A DNA stretch of 64,000 nt from positions 2,666,001-2,730,000 of the forward strand of contig NZ_VIGB01000003.1 of NCBI RefSeq assembly GCF_006636205.1. The letters are read 5' to 3'. This stretch comes from Kitasatospora acidiphila (GTDB lineage: Bacteria; Actinomycetota; Actinomycetes; Streptomycetales; Streptomycetaceae). Below are positions 28,850 to 43,854 of the stretch, piece after piece. Every line of letters begins with the position of its first letter. Positions within the stretch are counted from its first letter, which is position 1. The notes beneath the pieces were generated by a model. The model saw nothing but the letters and a program-made list of their open reading frames with translations. It was not told the DNA's origin and made no database searches. The position numbers and the translations under genes were made by a program.

Positions 28850-29278
28850 CTACCCACCAGACCCGAGCGGCGGAAGTACGCCGATCTGCTGCAGCAGGCC
28901 GAGTTCGTCCTTGTCAGACCACTTCTCGGCCAGCTTCCCGCCTTCGATGCGGTGGATCACCACGGCCGTCATCTTCATCTGGTTCCCCGTAGCCGGCGCA
29001 CCCGGGAGATCGCCCCGGTGAACTCCCGTCGCGGTCAGCCGAGTCACCACCTTGTCGCCTTCGGCGATCTGGTCCTCGATCTGATGACTTCCGGGCGTCG
29101 CATCCCAGAACAGCCGGAACGCCTCCTTGAGCCCATCCCGCCCAGGTGAGACCGGAAACGGCGGCGGATGGTGATCGACGTAATTCTCGGCGACAAGCTC
29201 GTCCATCGCATCGAGGTTGCCCGCGTCAATCTCCGCATAGAAGCGCCGAACCAGCGCCTTGTTGTCATCAGTGGACAT
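28850..29278 (-). CDS. SnoaL-like ester cyclase family protein
   Basis: A 142-residue SnoaL-like (NTF2-fold) protein with the conserved NYVDHHPPPFPVSPGRDGLKEAFRLFW and VIHRIEGGKLAEKWSDKDELGLLQQIG. Such stand-alone proteins are often annotated as ester cyclases or nuclear-transport-factor-2 proteins; the substrate is unknown. The start MSTDDNK at 29278 is favoured over the upstream ATG at 29296. Confidence 0.82.
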   Translation of the reverse strand: MSTDDNKALVRRFYAEIDAGNLDAMDELVAENYVDHHPPPFPVSPGRDGLKEAFRLFWDATPGSHQIEDQIAEGDKVVTRLTATGVHRGDLPGAPATGNQMKMTAVVIHRIEGGKLAEKWSDKDELGLLQQIGVLPPLGSGG

Positions 29279-29448
29279 GGCAGAAAGTCTTCCCACTCAA
29301 GCCCCGCCGGTCGACCCGGCACGCTTGGCCACCCCGCCAACTTCACTCGCAAGCACTGGAGCCGCCCGTCACCATTGCCTTACCTGGCCATCAGATGGCG
29401 TAGCTGCAACGCTCGATGCCGACCAGCGATCACGGCGCTGGCCCCTGA

Positions 29449-29483
29449 CAAAGTCCGATCTGTGCCAGAGGGCATCTACCGTG
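29449..29483 (+). pseudogene. Remnant of an XRE/DUF397 junction
   Basis: About 35 bp closely match the XRE 3' end/DUF397 start at 28541-28576: CCGATCTGTGC, then GAGGG-ATCTACCGTG. Both encode R-S-V-x-E-G-I-Y-R. The neighbouring sequence no longer encodes either protein, so this is debris from a second, lost module. Confidence 0.7.
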
Positions 29484-29488
29484 GCTCA

Positions 29489-29908
29489 TCAGATGAACGG
29501 TCCGCTGAGCACCTCGTACTCGCAAGAGGTGCCGATGACGTACTGCTTCGAGTACTCGCCCTGCTGCCCCACCTGAGTGGCAAGCCACTCATCCGGCCCC
29601 GGATCGAGATCGAGCACGCACCGCTCGTCCGTGCAGTCCAGCTTCAGCCCATCCGAGAGAACGAAGTACGAGTACTGCCTGCTGCACGGGAACTCGTATT
29701 CGTAGACGCCCCCGACCGTGATCTGTACGAGGCGCCAATCGTTGCCGGCTGCTCCGTCCATCGCCTGGATGTCGAACGACGCAGTCCACCCGGCGCTGGG
29801 TCCCCTGGGGATGTGGAGTCGAATTCCGGTGATCACGCCGTCTTCGAAGCAGGAGAACCTCTCGAGGAACCGCCTTTGGTCATGGGAGGAGACTGCTGTG
29901 GTGTTCAT
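29489..29908 (-). CDS. Hypothetical protein
   Basis: A 139-residue protein without a recognised domain. It is predicted to be mostly beta-strand, with several Cys and many aromatics (SRQYSYFVLSDGLKLDC, EYSKQYVIGTSCEYEVL). No signal peptide or membrane segment. The start MNTTAVSS has GGGGGA 8 nt upstream; MGEHLMNTT at 29923 is an alternative. It lies between module debris, so it may be a passenger gene of a mobile patch. Confidence 0.55.
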   Translation of the reverse strand: MNTTAVSSHDQRRFLERFSCFEDGVITGIRLHIPRGPSAGWTASFDIQAMDGAAGNDWRLVQITVGGVYEYEFPCSRQYSYFVLSDGLKLDCTDERCVLDLDPGPDEWLATQVGQQGEYSKQYVIGTSCEYEVLSGPFI

Positions 29909-29923
29909 CAGATGTTCCCCCAT

Positions 29924-30222
29924 GAGTGGGCTATAGCTTCCAACCGCACGGAACCTTCGTCTCCGGGATTCCTTGAAGACCTCGTCCGAGTAAAGCAGTT
30001 CGGCCACCGCAGCCTGCCAGCGGCCGCCCACCCGGCGCAGCAGCGACGACGACTAGGGCGCGTGTCTGGTCGTAGTAGAGGTCTGGCCGTGGCAGATAGC
30101 GATCGGGGTAGGCGGCCAGGATGTCGGCATCGGCAGGCGTCCCGAAGGTGGCGAGGGCAACGCAGACCGTAGCGTTTGCATAACCCTCTTGCCTCGATGA
30201 CTGGCTCGGTGATCACAGTCAT
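29924..30222 (-). pseudogene. Truncated ABC ATPase start fused to DUF6000-like fragments
   Basis: The reading frame begins at 30222 with MTVITEPVIEARGLCKRYG, a normal ABC-transporter ATPase N-terminus, and overlaps the GntR stop as ATGA. After about 19 codons the similarity stops. The following sequence reads, in other frames, as pieces of a DUF6000-type protein: ALATFGTPADADILAAY and RYLPRPDLYYDQ, then GGRWQAAVAELLYSDEV. The pieces are in the reverse of their normal order. Walker motifs are absent, so the ATPase is not functional. The DUF6000 assignment is from memory of the family. Confidence 0.65.
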
Positions 30223-32588: not shown

Positions 32589-32945
32589 GTGAGGTCTCCT
32601 GAGAAGCGTCCGTTTTGCTGCTCAGGCTAACTTCGTATGCAGCAGCACAAGATATGTGACGGCCCGTCACATGGATCACGTCATGTTCCCGGCACCGCGA
32701 CGCAGCCCCTCCACACGGCAGGCGACGGGGTCAGTGGTCAGCCCTGTTCTGCAGCACCCTTGCCCCTGACGGCCGGCAACTCATCGGCCCGCGCGTCGAG
32801 CGGGCGCACACGGAGCAGGCCTGTCCTGATGTTGTGAAGTCCCGGTGAAACTAAGGCCGTCACACCCCTATGACAGGGATAGGGCGGCGTCTAGCATGGA
32901 TGAACCAGAAGGCATCATTAGCCAAGGTGAATGGGAGACCTCCTC
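32589..32945. other. Promoter region upstream of the lanthipeptide precursor
   Basis: A 357-bp stretch without another gene. The proximal part carries the putative precursor promoter (32870-32897). Nothing else was recognised. Confidence 0.5.
32870..32897 (+). promoter_or_regulatory. Putative promoter of the lanthipeptide precursor
   Basis: ATGACA at 32870-32875, a 16-bp spacer, then TAGCAT at 32892-32897. It would give a leader of about 40 nt before the ATG at 32946. Confidence 0.45.
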
Positions 32946-33113
32946 ATGACCACCCAAGTCCTGGACATCCGCGACGCCGGCCCGCTGGACATCAACGACG
33001 ACCTGATCGCGTTCGAGGACGAGTTCGACGCCGCCCTGACCCCGGCGGCGTGCCTCCGCGACCCCTACGTCACCTGGGTGCCGACGCACTTCCCCTGCAA
33101 CGGCGACATCTGA
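32946..33113 (+). CDS. Class IV lanthipeptide precursor peptide
   Basis: A 55-residue peptide directly upstream of the LanL gene. The leader (about residues 1-29) is acidic: VLDIRD, then NDDLIAFEDEFDA. The core (about 30-55) contains Thr32, Cys36, Thr43, Thr47 and Cys51. T32-PAA-C36 and T47-HFP-C51 are both T-x3-C, which would give two same-size methyllanthionine rings; there is no Ser in the core. Thr43 could remain as dehydrobutyrine. GGGAG is 8 nt before the ATG; ATG at 32931 adds only MGDLL. There is no Gly-Gly cleavage site, and no protease or exporter gene is adjacent. Confidence 0.82.
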   Translation: MTTQVLDIRDAGPLDINDDLIAFEDEFDAALTPAACLRDPYVTWVPTHFPCNGDI

Positions 33114-33135
33114 TCCGCTCACCGGACGTGAGCCA

Positions 33136-33177
33136 GGGCGGCGGACTCGCGGCTTCCCGACCGCAGAGCCGCCGCCC
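33136..33177 (+). terminator. Attenuator-like hairpin between precursor and synthetase
   Basis: Outer stem GGGCGGCGG (33136-33144) with CCGCCGCCC (33169-33177), and an inner GCGG/CCGC stem. Its position suggests partial termination that makes precursor mRNA more abundant than synthetase mRNA. Confidence 0.6.
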
Positions 33178-33218
33178 GTGCACACCCGCGAGTTCCTAGC
33201 ATGGGAGGTCGTCGACTC

Positions 33219-35795
33219 ATGGCCCCAGCGGCACCGATCCCCGGTAGTGCCGAGGATCTGCTGGCCCGGATCACCGAACGGGTGAAGTCATCAACCTCCA
33301 GGCGAGGCCTTCTCGTTGACGACACTTGGTTGTATCTGCGGAACCCTGACATGCCGGTGCTGGAGCACGGCTGGAAGTTGCACATCTCGGCCCGGCCCGA
33401 GCAACTCCCCGAGCTGGTCGACCTGGTGCTCCCGGTGCTGCTGCGCCACCCCTGCGACGCCAAATTCGCCGCCGGCGCACAAATGCTGCGTTCGATGAAC
33501 AGCGGTGTGCTGAGCGCCGCCGCCGTCGGCAAGGCCGTCACCGTCTACCCGGCACCCGAAGCCCTGGTCACCGTCGGGCTGGAGCTGGCCGCCGCGCTGG
33601 CCGGTCGACCCGGGCCGCGGGTGGTGAGCGATCGACGACTGCGGCCGGATGCCCCGGTCTACTACCGGTACGGCCCGTTCCACGTTGCCAACGGGGACAC
33701 CGAACCCGTCATCGCCGGCCCGGGCGGTGCGACGTTCGCGGGCGCGGCAACGGAGCGCTACCGCCAACCCGCCTGGGTGACCGACCCGTTCGGCCATCAG
33801 GCCGCACCTGCGGGCGGGAGCGTCCAATTGGGCGACGGCCGGTACCGGATCACCGCCGGAATCACCCGGTCGCCGAACGGCCATGTGTACCGTGCGGTCG
33901 AGACCGCCACGGGACGCCCGGTGGTGATCAAGCAGGCGCGGGCCTTTGTTGCCGAGGACAGCAACGGAGTTGACGCGCGGGGCCGCCTCCGGCATGAACG
34001 GCAGGTACTGTCCGCGCTGGCGGGCCTACCCGAAGTACCGGAGCTGGTGGACCACTTCAGGCACGGCGAGGACGAGTACTTGGTGACCGGCGACCGTGGG
34101 CCACGGGACTTGCGACGGGACGTGCTGACTCGTGGACCGTACCGGGCGGTTGCGGACGCCGAGCGCGACGGGTGGGCGCTGGCGCGCGCACTGCTACGGG
34201 TGCTGGACGCAGTGCATGCGCGCGGGGTGGTGGTCTGCGACCTCAAGCCGGCCAATGTCGTACTCGACGACGCGGGGCGGTGTTCGCTGGTGGACTTCGG
34301 CGTCAGCGCCTTGGCCGGCGAACGGCCTGAAGGGGTCACCCCGGGCTATGCGGTGCCGAGTCGGCATCCCGTCCAACTCGCGGACGACTACTACTCCTTG
34401 GGAACAACCCTGCACTATGCGCTCACCGGTCTGGATCCCGTGGTACTCGACTCGGATCCGGCCGTGAACCGTGATCGCACCCTGGCTTGCCTAGCAGGCG
34501 CGCTCCCTGCACCAGGGCACCCGGCCGTCGAATTGGTGGCAGGGTTACTGAGCTTCGACACCGAGGAGCGGACTGCGGCCGCAGCCGAACTTCGATGCGG
34601 GCAGGCCGCAGTGCGTTCACGCAGCTGCCCGCGGCCACCCACCGTCGACGCCCGACTGGTCGCCGCCATCGTCGACCACACCGTGACCACCTGCGTGCAG
34701 ATGGCCCACGAACTGGTCACCGCGCCCCGCCGCAGCGGCCTACCCCACACGCTCCTCTCCCTCTACAACGGCAGCGCCGGCCTGGGCCTCGAACTGCTGC
34801 AGCATGCCGACCGCCCGGACGCCCGGGAGGCCGCGGCCGCCCTGGCCCGTTGGACGACCGCCCATCCCGACCTCGACCGCCTCACCCTCGGCCTGTACGA
34901 CGGCCGCACGGGCGTGGACCTCTTCGTGACCGAGGCCGCCGATCTCCTGGGCACCGAACTACCGCCTGAGTACCTGACGTTGACGGCGTCGACCGCCAGT
35001 GCCCCGGCCATCACCGACGGGCCGGTCGACAGTCGCCGGACGGATCAGATCTCCGGCCTGGCCGGTATCGGCACCGGCCAGTTGCTTCTGGCCCGCCGAG
35101 CTCAGACGGCCGGCCGGCACGCGGACGCCCGGCACCACGTCGCACTCGCGGCCTCGTGCGCGCGCGACCTGGTCGCCGAACCGCCCGGCCCCCTCCCCGA
35201 GGAGCCCAATCCGGGCACGGCGGCGCTGGCTGAAGGCTTCGCGCACGGCCAGGCCGGGCTCGCGCACTTCCTCATCGAGGTGCCCGCCTCACAGTCCGTG
35301 GCCAGGCGGCTGGTTGACGGCCTCGCCGCCGAACTCCCCCGCATCATCGCCGACGCCACCCGCCCCGGCGCCACTCGGCGCTACGCCTCCTGGTGCCGCG
35401 GCCTGGCCGGCATCGGCGCCGTCCTTGTCCAAGCGGGTCACCGCTGGCAGGACGAGCAGTTCGTCAAGCTGGCCGCCGATGCGGCTGACGCCTGCCGCAC
35501 CCTCGCACCGCACATGGGCCTCGCCGTCCAATGCTGCGGTCTGGCCGGAGTCGGCGAGTTGTTCGTCGACCTGGCCGTGACCACCGGGGAGGATCGGCAT
35601 TGGCGCGCAGCCGAGGAGATCGCCGCACTGATCCTCACGCGCAGCGCTGGACCGATCGAGCAACCGCGCTTTCCCGGCAAGGCAGTTGACGGAGAGTCGG
35701 CTGCCTGGGCACTCGGAACCCCGGGTGTTCTCTCCCTCTTCCGCCGACTCCACCGCCGGGGCGGGCCACGGCTGGGCCTACTCGGACTCGACTGA
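33219..35795 (+). CDS. Class IV lanthipeptide synthetase LanL
   Basis: An 858-residue trifunctional enzyme. The lyase domain (about residues 1-180) has the LanKC/LanL sequence GWKLHISARPEQLPELV and RHPCDAKFA. The Ser/Thr kinase domain (about 205-470) has Lys238 (VVIKQ), catalytic Asp341 (CDLKPANVVL) and DFG Asp359. The LanC-like cyclase (about 490-858) has His676 in FAHGQAGLA, Cys726 in SWCRG and Cys772-Cys773 in CCGLAGVGE. The zinc-ligand set, with CCG instead of CHG, separates it from class III LanKC enzymes. Codon 443 is TTA (34545-34547). The start at 33219 follows GGGAGG by 10 nt. Confidence 0.9.
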   Translation: MAPAAPIPGSAEDLLARITERVKSSTSRRGLLVDDTWLYLRNPDMPVLEHGWKLHISARPEQLPELVDLVLPVLLRHPCDAKFAAGAQMLRSMNSGVLSAAAVGKAVTVYPAPEALVTVGLELAAALAGRPGPRVVSDRRLRPDAPVYYRYGPFHVANGDTEPVIAGPGGATFAGAATERYRQPAWVTDPFGHQAAPAGGSVQLGDGRYRITAGITRSPNGHVYRAVETATGRPVVIKQARAFVAEDSNGVDARGRLRHERQVLSALAGLPEVPELVDHFRHGEDEYLVTGDRGPRDLRRDVLTRGPYRAVADAERDGWALARALLRVLDAVHARGVVVCDLKPANVVLDDAGRCSLVDFGVSALAGERPEGVTPGYAVPSRHPVQLADDYYSLGTTLHYALTGLDPVVLDSDPAVNRDRTLACLAGALPAPGHPAVELVAGLLSFDTEERTAAAAELRCGQAAVRSRSCPRPPTVDARLVAAIVDHTVTTCVQMAHELVTAPRRSGLPHTLLSLYNGSAGLGLELLQHADRPDAREAAAALARWTTAHPDLDRLTLGLYDGRTGVDLFVTEAADLLGTELPPEYLTLTASTASAPAITDGPVDSRRTDQISGLAGIGTGQLLLARRAQTAGRHADARHHVALAASCARDLVAEPPGPLPEEPNPGTAALAEGFAHGQAGLAHFLIEVPASQSVARRLVDGLAAELPRIIADATRPGATRRYASWCRGLAGIGAVLVQAGHRWQDEQFVKLAADAADACRTLAPHMGLAVQCCGLAGVGELFVDLAVTTGEDRHWRAAEEIAALILTRSAGPIEQPRFPGKAVDGESAAWALGTPGVLSLFRRLHRRGGPRLGLLGLD
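34545..34547 (+). promoter_or_regulatory. TTA codon in lanL (possible bldA control)
   Basis: An in-frame TTA (Leu443) in the kinase-cyclase linker region. In Streptomyces, TTA codons depend on the bldA tRNA, which ties translation to development. Confidence 0.85.
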
Positions 35796-37638: not shown

Positions 37639-38421
37639 CTATGGGAGTGCGAGCAGCGCCGTCAGGTCGGCGATCTCCTGGATACCGGCTTCCGCGGCAG
37701 TGCGGGATTCGGGGCAGGGGCCAAGGCGGTTGAGCCAGCAGGCCTGGAGGCCGGCCGCCCGGGCGGCGACCGCGTCATGGGCCAGGTGGTCGCCGACGTG
37801 CAGCACCTGGCCCGGGTCGACACCGAGGCGCTCGGCGGTGCGGTGGAACATCCGCGGGTCGGGCTTCTGGTAACCGCTCTCGTTCGCGGAGGTGACGCAG
37901 CTGAAGTAGTCCAGCCCCACCCTTGCCGGGTCGGTGTTGCCGTTGGTGGTGACCGCCAGCGGGTAGCGCTCGGCCAGCGCACCGAGTACCTCAACCACTT
38001 CCGGGAACGGCTTCATGGCAGCCCAGCGGGTCTCGTTGTAGGTGGTGAACATCTCGGCGATCCGCTCCGGGTCCGCCGGCTGTCCGCACTCCTCCAGGGC
38101 CAGCGTGAACGACGCCTTGCGGATCACCTCCAGTCCGGTGCCGGGCTCGGCGGCGGCCTCGGCGACCGTCCACAGCTCGGCCAGCCACTCCCCCGTCACC
38201 GACCCGCTGGGGCGGCGCAGGCCCTCCGCCCGGAGCCGCTCCGCCGTCGCAGAGATCGCTACGGCGAAGGACGCGCCGAAGTCCCACAGGGTGTCGTCGG
38301 CGTCGAAGGAGATCGCGGCGATCGGCGGGAGGGGGGAGAGCTGGGGCGTCGCGGCTTGGGCAGGCGTGACGGGTATCGCAGGCACGGGAACCATGGAGGG
38401 CGTTGGAGGCACGGTAGGCAT
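37639..38421 (-). CDS. HAD-superfamily hydrolase
   Basis: A 260-residue HAD hydrolase, probably a phosphatase. Motif I is FDADDTLW (about residue 45), motif II is in AVTTNGNTD, motif III is Lys in GYQKPDPRMF, and motif IV is HVGDHLAHD. The C1 cap is helical. The N-terminus is an unusual Pro/Ala-rich extension of about 40 residues (MPTVPPTPSMVPVPAIP), so the true start may be nearer IAAISFDADD. Between its end and the DUF4097-like gene are imperfect GCGGGAGCTG repeats. Confidence 0.82.
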   Translation of the reverse strand: MPTVPPTPSMVPVPAIPVTPAQAATPQLSPLPPIAAISFDADDTLWDFGASFAVAISATAERLRAEGLRRPSGSVTGEWLAELWTVAEAAAEPGTGLEVIRKASFTLALEECGQPADPERIAEMFTTYNETRWAAMKPFPEVVEVLGALAERYPLAVTTNGNTDPARVGLDYFSCVTSANESGYQKPDPRMFHRTAERLGVDPGQVLHVGDHLAHDAVAARAAGLQACWLNRLGPCPESRTAAEAGIQEIADLTALLALP

Positions 38422-38695
38422 GCGAGCGACTCTAGGGCCCGCACGTCCGAGCTGTCGCACCCCATCCAGTGGGCGCCGCCGACGGCCTGGACCACTTCGT
38501 GCCACAGCCGGTGAGCGGAGCGGGTGCCGAGGATGTGCCTGCCCGGGCTTTGGCCAAGCGCCTGCTCAGCCGCCAAGGGGCAGCCAACGCGCCCGGCGAG
38601 ATGGTGTGATCAGCATTTCGTCATCCACGATCGACCTTGATCGGCTAGCTTTCGCTTCTGTTGCTGTAGTCCCAGGCGTGGAAGGACGTGACAGG

Positions 38696-39583
38696 GTGGA
38701 CGAGCGTGACTGGCTGGCCGCGCAGTTCGAGGAGCACCGGCCGCGACTGCGGGCGATCGCCTACCGCATCCTCGGTTCGCTGAGCGAGGCCGATGACGCC
38801 GTGCAGGACACATGGCTGCGGTTGAACCGCACTGACGCCCAGACCGTGGAGAACCTGGGCGGCTGGCTGACCACGGTGGTGTCCCGGGTCTGCCTCAACG
38901 CACTGCGCTCACGTGAGCACCGCCGCGAGGACCCGCTCGATGCGGTCGTGGAGCGGGACGGCCTCGACGACCGCCGCGAGCGCGGCATCGACCCCGAGGA
39001 GGAGGCGCTGCTCGCGGACTCCGTCGGACTGGCGCTGCTGGTGGTGCTCGACACCCTCTCGCCCGCCGAGCGAGTGGCCTTCGTGCTGCACGACATGTTC
39101 GCGGTGCCGTTCGAGGAGATCGGTCCGCTGATCGACCGCACCCCCGCCACCACGCGCCAACTCGCCAGCCGCGCCCGGCGCCGGGTGAAGGGCAACCCGC
39201 CACCGGAGTCCGACCTCGTACGGCAGCGGAAGGTGGTCAGCGCCTATCTGGCTGCCACCCGCGCCGGCGACTTCGACGCACTGCTCGCGCTGCTCGACCC
39301 CCAGGTGGTGCTTCGCGCGGACACAGCTGTCGGCCCCAGCCCCACCCCGATCCTGCTGCGCGGCGCCCAGACCGTGGCCAAGGCCGCCCTGGCCTCCACC
39401 GGCCGCGCCCTCACCACCCAACTCGCCCTGCTCGACGGCTCGGTGGGCCTCGTCATGGCCCCGCACGGCCGCTTGGCACTGGTGCTCGCGTTCACCATGG
39501 CGGACGGGAAGATCACCGAGATCGACGTCATCGCCGAGCCCGAGCGCCTGCCGGAAGTGGAGCTGGCAGTACTGGAGGACTGA
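38696..39583 (+). CDS. ECF sigma factor with SnoaL-like C-terminal domain
   Basis: A 295-residue SigJ-like ECF sigma factor. Region 2 is at about residues 8-75 (AIAYRILGSLSEADDAVQDTWLR). Region 4 is at about 125-175 (LSPAERVAFVLHDMFAVPFEEIGPLIDRTPATTRQLASRARRR). The SnoaL-like extension ends VAEP-like (IDVIAEPERL). It lacks the DGGG-K and NPDKL marks of ECF41, so it belongs to a related SnoaL-bearing group. The GTG at 38696 follows GAAGGA by 9 nt; GTG at 38678 is an alternative. No obvious target gene is adjacent. Confidence 0.85.
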   Translation: MDERDWLAAQFEEHRPRLRAIAYRILGSLSEADDAVQDTWLRLNRTDAQTVENLGGWLTTVVSRVCLNALRSREHRREDPLDAVVERDGLDDRRERGIDPEEEALLADSVGLALLVVLDTLSPAERVAFVLHDMFAVPFEEIGPLIDRTPATTRQLASRARRRVKGNPPPESDLVRQRKVVSAYLAATRAGDFDALLALLDPQVVLRADTAVGPSPTPILLRGAQTVAKAALASTGRALTTQLALLDGSVGLVMAPHGRLALVLAFTMADGKITEIDVIAEPERLPEVELAVLED

Positions 39584-39924
39584 GGCCATCTCAGGGCCGG
39601 CTCCCTGTCCGGCCCGCAGCCTGCTCGGCCCCACCCCACCTCGGTCCAGCCCTACCCCAGCCCGGCCCGGCCCGGCCCGCGCAGTGCGCTGCGCTGCGCG
39701 AGCCGGGCCCTGACGCATCGTCGGCCGCTGCCGCCCCGACGGGCCACCGCATTTGTGGTGGCCCGTCGGGCACCGCCTTCGCGGTCCGCATAGCGGCAGG
39801 GCGGAGTCAGCGCCGGCTGGGGCCCGGTCGCCGCCGTCATGGGTGGACTGCGCAAGCACCACCGGGCTCAGGGGGACCAACCAGCCGGGGCATTCACCTG
39901 GCCGCCTTTGCAATAGCCCCTTTG
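39584..39924. other. Intergenic region between convergent genes
   Basis: About 340 bp without a recognised gene. It contains CCCGG micro-repeats near 39660-39680, short self-complementary GCGC tracts, and a strong terminator (39735-39770). Confidence 0.5.
39735..39770. terminator. Terminator, 14-bp perfect stem
   Basis: Arms 39735-39748 and 39757-39770 (CCCGACGGGCCACC / GGTGGCCCGTCGGG) with an 8-nt loop, between the sigma gene and the convergent TetR gene. Confidence 0.85.
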
Positions 39925-40548
39925 CTACAGCCCCTCGGAGGTTCGCGCATCGGGGAAGAGCCGGCCGAGGTGGTAGTGCAGGACGGCAGCAGCGTCGTCC
40001 GCCGTCCGCTGCCCGAGCAGGACGCTGAGGCCGAGGCCGGCTGAGACCGCCAGGAGGACGACGGCCTCTTGGCGGGCGTCCAGGCACGGGTCGGTATCAC
40101 CAGCCTGCTGGGCGGCGGCCAGTTGGCCGACCAGGAAGCCCTCCATCTCGTTGGGTGCCGCGAGGAACGACTGGCCGGCGAGTGCGGGGTCAGTGACGGA
40201 GAGCACCGCGTACTCGGTGTAGACGAGGTGGAAGGTCCGGCTCTCCTCGTCGGTCGGTATGGCTTCGAGCAGGACCGCCTCGATGATGTCGCGCGGAGCC
40301 GTCGAGGATCCGGCCGCTCTGACCCGGTCGCGGACCCGCTCGCCCATGCGCACGGCCAGGCGCGTGAGTGCGGCGAGGAGTAGTTGCTCCTTGGTGTCGA
40401 AGTAGTACTGCACGAGCCGCACCGAGACGCCCGCCTCGATCGCCACGGACCGCATGGTGACGGCGTGCAGTCCGCTGTCCGCCGCCGTGCGGAGCAGCGC
40501 GTCGATGATGTGGGCTCGCCGCTCCTCGTGGTCCACCAGCTTCGGCAT
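39925..40548 (-). CDS. TetR-family repressor
   Basis: A 207-residue TetR regulator. The DNA-binding domain covers about residues 10-55 (HIIDALLRTAADSGLHAVTMRSVAIEAGVSVRLVQYYFDTKEQLL). The C-terminal domain is helical and ligand-binding. It is divergent from an alpha/beta hydrolase gene with 73 bp between starts. That gap holds one clear inverted repeat (40571-40588), so it probably represses itself and the hydrolase. Confidence 0.9.
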   Translation of the reverse strand: MPKLVDHEERRAHIIDALLRTAADSGLHAVTMRSVAIEAGVSVRLVQYYFDTKEQLLLAALTRLAVRMGERVRDRVRAAGSSTAPRDIIEAVLLEAIPTDEESRTFHLVYTEYAVLSVTDPALAGQSFLAAPNEMEGFLVGQLAAAQQAGDTDPCLDARQEAVVLLAVSAGLGLSVLLGQRTADDAAAVLHYHLGRLFPDARTSEGL

Positions 40549-42369: not shown

Positions 42370-43854
42370 CTAGAGCCGCACCGCCGCGTTGGCGTCCACG
42401 AGCCCATGACCGTAGAAGCCGTTGTCGAGCGGCGAGCCCTCGCAGGTGGCCGCCCAGGCCCCGGTGCCGCCGGGGTTGAAGGGACCGGTGGGGCAGGCGA
42501 TCGGGTGAGCCTCGGCGGTGAGCAGCGCGGTCAACTCCGCCGGGCTCGCGCCGGGGTGGGCACTGGCGAGCAGTGCGACCACGCCGGTGGCATGCGGGGT
42601 GGCCATCGAAGTCCCCTGCATGTAGCCGTACTTGTTGCCGGGCAGGGTGGAGAGCACCCGCCCGTTGCGGTCCGGGGTGTCGGGGATCTGGAACTGCGCG
42701 TCGCCGCCCGGCGCCGCCACCGTGACCACGCCCGCGCCATAGCTGGAGTAGTAGGACTTCACGCCCTGGCTGCCCACCGCCGACACCGCGATCACGCCCG
42801 GCAGTTCGGCCGGAAGCTCAAGGCAGCTGTCGTCGACGGGCCGGCTCACCGGGGTGGTGTCGTCGGGGCTCAGGGCGTCCGTGGTCTTGTGGGCCAGGTC
42901 GGTGTTGTAGTTGCCGGCCGCCGCGACGTTCAGCACACCGTTGCCCTGGGAGTACTCGACCGCGCGCCGCACCGCCGTGACGATGGCGGCCTGGTCCGGG
43001 TCGCCCTGGCAGTTGTAGAGCCAAGGGTCGATGAAGTAGCTGCTGTTGGTCACCTGGAAGTGGTGCTCGGCCGCCCAGACGAAGCCGCAGACCGCGTACT
43101 CCGGGTAGATGAAGCCGCCGTTGTCCACCACCTTCACCGCCGCCAGCCGCACGTCGGGCGCGATGCCGACGATGCCCTTGCCGTTCTTGGCCGCGGCGAT
43201 GGTGCCGGCGACGTGCGTGCCGTGCGGGCTGCTGGTGGGCTGCCACGACTGCCAACTGGTGTCCGGAGCACCGCCGTTGATGCATGAGGCGGAGAGCGAC
43301 GAGTCCACGTTGGCGGCCAGGTCCTCATGGGTGGCGTCGATCCCGGAGTCCAGCACCCCGACCACCACGTCACGGCTGCCGAGGGTGACCTGGTGCGCCT
43401 TGTCGGCGCCGATCTCGCGCAGGTCCCACTGCTCGGCCTGCAACGGCTCGCTGCCGTCGGCGGGCGCGGCGGCGGGCGGAGTGGTGACCTCGGCGGTCTC
43501 CACATCACCCTGCGGGATGCCGGCGGTACGGGTGGCGCCGACCGAGTCAATGCCGTTGAGGCCACGGAGCGTCGTGGCGAAGGCGGTGTTGGTCGAGCGG
43601 GCGATGATCACGCCGATCTGCTCGTAGGCATAGACCACGGTGCCGCCGGCCGCGGTGATCTCCCGTTCGGCCTTCTGCACCTGGCCGTGGTTGGCCTTGG
43701 TGTTGACCAGGTAGCTGAGCAGCGGCCCGGTGCTGCCCGCGGGCGCCGGGGTTGCCGCCGAGGCGACTCCGGCGGGCAGGGCGAGGGCGACCGCGGTGGC
43801 CAGGGCGAGCCCGGCGGCGGCACCGCGCACCTTGCGTATTCGACGAACTCCCAT
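42370..43854 (-). CDS. Secreted subtilisin-like S8 protease
   Basis: A 494-residue exported serine peptidase. A signal peptide (about residues 1-34, ending VASA) is followed by an I9-like propeptide (about 40-110; LLSYLVNTKANHGQVQKAE). The catalytic domain follows with Asp in VLDSGID, His in PHGTHVAGTIAA and Ser in GTSMATPHATG. The oxyanion Asn is in NVAAAGNYN. Insertions with Cys pairs (around CVINGG-like and NCQGDP segments) suggest disulfide stabilisation. It probably degrades extracellular protein. Confidence 0.92.
   Translation of the reverse strand: MGVRRIRKVRGAAAGLALATAVALALPAGVASAATPAPAGSTGPLLSYLVNTKANHGQVQKAEREITAAGGTVVYAYEQIGVIIARSTNTAFATTLRGLNGIDSVGATRTAGIPQGDVETAEVTTPPAAAPADGSEPLQAEQWDLREIGADKAHQVTLGSRDVVVGVLDSGIDATHEDLAANVDSSLSASCINGGAPDTSWQSWQPTSSPHGTHVAGTIAAAKNGKGIVGIAPDVRLAAVKVVDNGGFIYPEYAVCGFVWAAEHHFQVTNSSYFIDPWLYNCQGDPDQAAIVTAVRRAVEYSQGNGVLNVAAAGNYNTDLAHKTTDALSPDDTTPVSRPVDDSCLELPAELPGVIAVSAVGSQGVKSYYSSYGAGVVTVAAPGGDAQFQIPDTPDRNGRVLSTLPGNKYGYMQGTSMATPHATGVVALLASAHPGASPAELTALLTAEAHPIACPTGPFNPGGTGAWAATCEGSPLDNGFYGHGLVDANAAVRL

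Follow-up and report, generated by a model that had tools for sequence, protein, structure and literature searches.

The window, that is, the whole 64,000-nucleotide stretch of Kitasatospora acidiphila DNA that was analysed, contains a short precursor gene followed directly by a synthetase gene. Judged from sequence, the pair is best explained as a minimal two-gene operon for a class IV lanthipeptide of the SflA family, and the precursor belongs, by its profile match, to this already described family. From the pattern of conserved core residues among family members, we propose with moderate confidence that the product would carry one reverse ring joining C36 to T43 and one normal ring joining T47 to C51. 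The two genes are as follows.

32946 to 33113, forward strand: lanA, 55-residue precursor of the SflA class IV lanthipeptide family, assigned by its NF038148 match and its translation.
33201 to 35795, forward strand: lanL, class IV lanthionine synthetase of 864 residues, with an alternative start at 33219.

Precursor peptide and synthetase

The lanA translation (window 32946-33113, forward strand) is MTTQVLDIRDAGPLDINDDLIAFEDEFDAALTPAACLRDPYVTWVPTHFPCNGDI. A profile search matched this peptide to NF038148 ("SflA family class IV lanthipeptide", NCBIfam) with an E-value of 3.7e-26 and 90.8 bits, above the 25-bit cut-off of the profile, which places it in the SflA family. The leader is acidic and is predicted to span residues ~1-30, with the core at ~31-55. 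The peptide contains exactly two Cys residues (C36 and C51) and no Ser, and both T32/C36 and T47/C51 show a T-x3-C spacing. The sequence-only reading had described a peptide of 55 residues, its leader acidic, upstream of a LanL enzyme, with these two Cys, these two spacings and no Ser, and the translations of 32946-33113 and 33201-35795 agree with it on each of these features. Its ring prediction did not weigh the third core Thr, T43, which is the Thr conserved across the SflA family. It had also put the core forward as matching no familiar class IV product; the exact sequence may indeed be new, but the family already had a name (SflA, NF038148).

lanL starts 87 bases after the lanA stop codon. 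The domain profile search revealed RamC_N, Pkinase and LANC_like domains in the one protein, all over their cut-offs. With 739.9 bits, LanL exceeded the 650-bit cut-off of the class IV LanL equivalog NF038150; for the class III LanKC profile it reached 339 bits, short of the required 575. Zinc ligands in the cyclase domain are absent from class III enzymes; the corresponding ligands C732, C778 and C779 are present in LanL and aligned with those of PDB 8car_A. The score and the zinc ligands together ruled out a class III (LanKC) assignment. Residues 11-860 of LanL matched 8car_A with an E-value of 4.9e-165 and shared its zinc and catalytic motifs. Since almost the whole protein is matched by a relative of solved structure, the fold is settled.

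H61, K111, K244, D347, N352, D365, D615, H682, C732, C778 and C779 were identical at 20 of 20 relative LanL loci, 17 checked by alignment and three, missed by the ORF filter, by tblastn; C778, C779, D347 and N352 were partly pre-selected in the 17, because that filter demanded CCG-like and DLxPxN-like motifs. Their catalytic roles are presumed, in part from the motif. The intact lyase, kinase and zinc/cyclase motifs claimed earlier were all found, with K244, D347, D365, H682, C732, C778 and C779 in place; they had been listed as K238, D341, D359, H676, C726 and C772-C773, six lower than in the 864-residue numbering, because the count began at the internal ATG at 33219. The earlier assignment to class IV is thus upheld by the NF038148 and NF038150 scores, the domains, the 8car_A match and the residues of the relatives.

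Distribution of the SflA family

Among the 199 genomes searched as relatives, the source genome being counted, 41 were matched by the SflA-family profile; a draw of 391 genomes from across the order, overlapping with the 199, gave 18 with a match, and none of 14 control genomes was matched. A LanL sequence adjoins the family peptide at 53 of the 54 places examined. At one locus (L015, genome G011), the LanL beside the peptide lies in three pieces in different frames and is broken or misassembled. The diverged members L042 (G049) and L043 (G045) also adjoin LanL and have the cores CIYNHVTFTPFLTEVWTC and CSNGTFTLLFTHVAC. Similar to the window, a plasmid locus of Kitasatospora sp. NBC_00039 (NZ_CP108290.1) carries the annotation 'SflA family class IV lanthipeptide' next to lanL; its peptide is 47.8% identical to the window peptide over 84%, and its precursor and lanL are annotated as overlapping, unlike the two genes in the window.

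Conservation of the core and proposed rings

Core residues were counted in 54 distinct family peptides (L063 included) after removal of L038, L033 and L065-L068 as repeats of L001, L003, L039-L041 and L044. Where L023, L040, L041 and L044 begin is uncertain, which leaves the core counts unaffected. The second Cys has Thr at -4 in 51 of 52 peptides, so that family conservation gives good support to ring B between T47 and C51, which is probably right. Few core positions vary as much as the one four residues before the first Cys; Ser or Thr stands there in four of 54 peptides, namely Thr in the window peptide, L025 and L035 and Ser in L022. In 16 of the 54, the stretch from FE[DE] to the first Cys lacks Ser and Thr altogether, and 24 of the 54 have Thr at -2 (T-A-C).

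Downstream of the first Cys, Thr was found six or seven residues away in all 54 peptides (+7 in 51 peptides, +6 in L003, L042 and L043), although this conservation is partly circular because the family profile and the extraction pattern select for the region. The first Cys itself was kept in 54 of 54, as the extraction pattern requires. The distance between the two Cys residues was 14 in 40 peptides, 15 in 11 and 17 in one, and the second Cys was absent in two. Among peptides with Thr at +7, the distance was 14 in 39 and 15 in 11, the two main groups. Because the spacings from the first Cys to Thr and from Thr to the second Cys are constant, the extra residue sits between the two conserved Thr residues. 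These spacing counts fit rings in the two constant segments and a linker in the variable stretch. Additionally, Pro occupies +4 of the first Cys in 52 of 54 peptides, which fits a turn inside a putative ring A.

In the proposed pathway, LanL would bind the acidic leader at the IRDAGPLDxxDDxIxFED region, its kinase domain would phosphorylate core Thr residues at the predicted sites, and its lyase domain would eliminate the phosphate to give Dhb. The zinc cyclase domain would then add Cys to Dhb. Ring A would be reversed, C36 adding to the downstream Dhb43 (C-x6-T) and enclosing LRDPYV, and ring B would form in the normal direction from Dhb47 to C51 (T-x3-C), with a WVP linker between the two. 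T32 may stay unaltered or be simply dehydrated. The calculated monoisotopic mass of the complete precursor is 6089.88 Da before modification and 6053.86 Da after the loss of two waters, a value shared by this ring pattern and the T32-C36 plus T47-C51 pattern. A literature search of narrow scope found no paper on lanthipeptides with Cys N-terminal to the dehydroamino acid. Labionin formation was also considered and rejected; the labionin motif is S-x2-S-x3-C, and the core has neither Ser nor this motif.

The Kitasatospora humi orthologue

The peptide of Kitasatospora humi RB6PN24 is 74% identical to the window peptide over residues 1-54, and its LanL is 74% identical to the window LanL, with all checked residues present. 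Upon comparison of the two cores, C36 and T43 were found to be kept, and in K. humi positions 32, 47 and 51 are occupied by Ala, Ser and Arg, respectively. The K. humi peptide contains a single Cys, upstream of which Ser and Thr are represented only by T2 and T3, where the leader begins. Since no core Ser or Thr precedes C36, any core lanthionine in this peptide must join a downstream residue, that is, in the reverse direction. By its sequence the product can hold at most one Cys-derived ring, and we consider this orthologue the best natural test of ring direction.

Alternative ring patterns

The sequence-only reading had placed a DPYVTW segment between two methyllanthionine rings of equal size, T32-C36 and T47-C51, an arrangement which would imply that T32 was gained in the lineage and allows a conventional N-terminal ring. 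Its T47-C51 ring agrees with the family and is retained here; its T32-C36 ring is probably wrong. Both T-x3-C spacings are present in the peptide, the direction would be the conventional one with Cys downstream of Dhb, and L025, L035 and L022 have a comparable residue at -4. However, that residue is found in only the four peptides named above, the nearest orthologue (K. humi) and the paralogue in the same genome both have Ala at this position, and the conserved T43 would be left unexplained, so that we regard the equal-ring pattern as unlikely. Another arrangement, in which ring B alone forms, C36 is left as a free thiol or pairs in a disulfide between molecules, and T43 becomes Dhb or serves unmodified in recognition, appears very improbable to us. 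It would agree with ring B having the most constant geometry and with the 16 peptides in which the first Cys has no nearby upstream partner, but the first Cys was kept throughout (as the pattern requires) where C51 was lost from the K. humi peptide and the orphan paralogue, and the review PMC8358304 reports two rings for SflA.

The reverse ring from C36 to T43 has points against it as well. The conservation of T43 could reflect recognition by the enzyme or a free Dhb, and the clade with Thr at -2 (24 of the 54 peptides) could form a small N-terminal ring. Moreover, the window peptide itself has T32 at -4, and Thr lies at +6 instead of +7 in L003, L042 and L043.

An orphan paralogue in the source genome

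A second family member was found elsewhere in the source genome, which was the only one of the 199 genomes with two SflA-family matches.

C3:8137645-8137809 (L033:7646-7810): orphan SflA-family precursor with one Cys, 76.3 bits to the family profile.

No LanL was found in the 16 kb around the orphan or nearby in the genome-wide LanL-profile search. In the orphan, the residue four before the first Cys is Ala and C51 is lost. A strong terminator-like hairpin lies right after its stop codon (MFE -48.1, z -7.1), and its upstream blocks are related to those of the window lanA. Over the first 36 codons, the orphan and the window copy differ with a dN of 0.15 and a dS of 0.49; dN was below dS in all three pairs of copies (0.15/0.49, 0.08/0.31 and 0.11/0.39, over these 36 leader codons only).

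The orphan may be a trans substrate or a decaying duplicate. A tentative and rather doubtful extension of the first option is that SflA enzymes close ring 1 in reverse, that this ring is both ancestral and indispensable, because C36 and T43 survive where C51 is lost, and that the LanL of the source genome also modifies the orphan in trans to give a one-ring product lacking ring 2. Decay could also be extended to the window locus, which would then be silent or decaying with a product that may no longer matter in the lineage. The eroded cores of K. humi and the orphan, together with the missing LanL partner of the latter, would suit such a history; we nevertheless hold it to be highly unlikely, as the window LanL is complete in length and retains every residue checked, dN of the leader lies well below dS for the three pairs, and the upstream blocks and the hairpin after lanA are kept in the window, K. 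humi and orphan copies.

Other LanL-like genes were observed in the same genome. At C3:6318905-6321480 (L048, L049), a class IV-like synthetase is split over two frames (profile positions 1-367 and 354-851), which indicates a frameshifted or misassembled gene. About 7 kb from it, C3:6328333-6330888 (L045) gave a second and stronger LanL match of 997 bits, 31% identical to the window LanL.

Comparison with known lanthipeptides

The window LanL is of the same enzyme class as SgbL of the venezuelin/globisporin class IV group, which we take to be the protein of PDB 8car/8cav, the entry matched at 4.9e-165. Cores of that group carry overlapping rings. The SflA type, unlike the venezuelin/globisporin group, is described as having non-overlapping rings; modified SflA has two non-interlaced thioether rings according to the review PMC8358304. 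The type member comes from Streptomyces sp. NRRL S-1022 and was characterised in 2020 (Ren et al. 2020, as cited in PMC8358304).

SflA and the window peptide fall into the same NCBIfam precursor family, NF038148, and the SflA family and the window have in common an adjacent LanL, two Cys residues and P-[WYF]-[VP]-T and T-x3-C elements. The SflA cleavage motif is given as PDLLK in a second review, PMC10885120. When this endoprotease site of the SflA leader was looked for, it was absent from the window peptide and found exactly in two of 54 family peptides (L054 and L056), to which SflA is therefore probably very close. The window core reads YVTWVPTHFPC where that of L054/L056 reads WVTATTRFAC, and the Thr before the first Cys stands at -4 in the window peptide and at -2 in L054/L056.

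Ring A of prochlorosin 2.8 joins an N-terminal Cys to a downstream Ser. We compared this peptide as an analogue of the topology proposed here (C36-T43 plus T47-C51) and claim no homology of the precursors; its enzyme is a class II LanM from cyanobacteria, unlike the class IV LanL of the window. Prochlorosin 2.8 has two native rings, both of seven residues, according to PMC11667668.

Candidate regulatory elements and neighbouring genes

Two candidate elements accompany lanA.

32859 to 32897, forward strand: candidate promoter upstream of lanA, with a GTCACACCCCTATG element and a TAGCAT (-10-like) element.
33136 to 33177, forward strand: RNA hairpin with a strong fold between lanA and lanL.

By eye, similar promoter-like blocks, with changes, align at the orphan paralogue, in K. 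humi and at eight other family loci, the first block of L026 being only partly covered. The region 33110-33185 folds with an MFE of -42.3 kcal/mol (z -3.97 against dinucleotide shuffles), and the hairpin is possibly an attenuator favouring the lanA transcript.

Sixteen window ORFs flanking the pair were compared with 12 relative loci, each spanning 18-19 kb. Eight ORFs were matched in K. humi and one (ORF 38909-40087) in L084, with no matches at the other loci; the eight amount to about six genes, two ORFs being the opposite strand of a neighbour. The six K. humi genes, 77-94% identical, are a glycosyltransferase, a HipA-like, a polyketide-cyclase-like and a methyltransferase gene, ORF 37639-38505 and a subtilase gene; the K. 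humi locus gave no match to the window ORFs at ~27.6-32.0 kb or to the DUF4097 and hydrolase genes. lanL was matched at 12 of 12 loci and lanA at 11 of 12, and the twelfth (L086, G049) carries the diverged peptide also seen as L042. From these comparisons, the recurring unit is the lanA-lanL pair; with matches beyond it only in K. humi and, for one ORF, in L084, a larger biosynthetic cluster found no support.

The upstream flank includes a HipA-like kinase domain protein (PF20613; 26237-27211, forward strand) with a 92% identical K. humi counterpart. Between ~27600 and 32000, the ORFs (an XRE/DUF5753 regulator, ORF 29168-30172 and a GntR regulator) are unmatched at K. humi while both flanks are matched, and this segment is a possible lineage-specific insertion. 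The G+C content drops to 63% at 28-30 kb of the window.

In SflA, leader removal is aided by an aminopeptidase encoded outside the cluster, according to PMC8358304. For the window peptide, too, the leader would probably be removed by a peptidase encoded elsewhere, because no protease gene recurs beside lanA-lanL among the relative loci compared. A search for AplP-like leader proteases gave six M1 peptidase matches in the source genome. A subtilase (S8) gene lies at 42370-43854 on the reverse strand, ~6.6 kb downstream of lanL, and is 93.5% identical in K. humi; it was matched in K. humi alone among the 12 loci, and a role as dedicated leader protease is unsupported.

Discussion

Few class IV products have been characterised. 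Class IV chemistry and the SflA family are already known, and this locus adds a member. The family alignment turns what was a guess about the rings into a sharp question of T32 versus T43, and the one-Cys orthologue of K. humi offers a natural case in which only the reverse ring would be possible. The orphan paralogue, in turn, suggests that the source genome may encode a second substrate unlinked to the pair.
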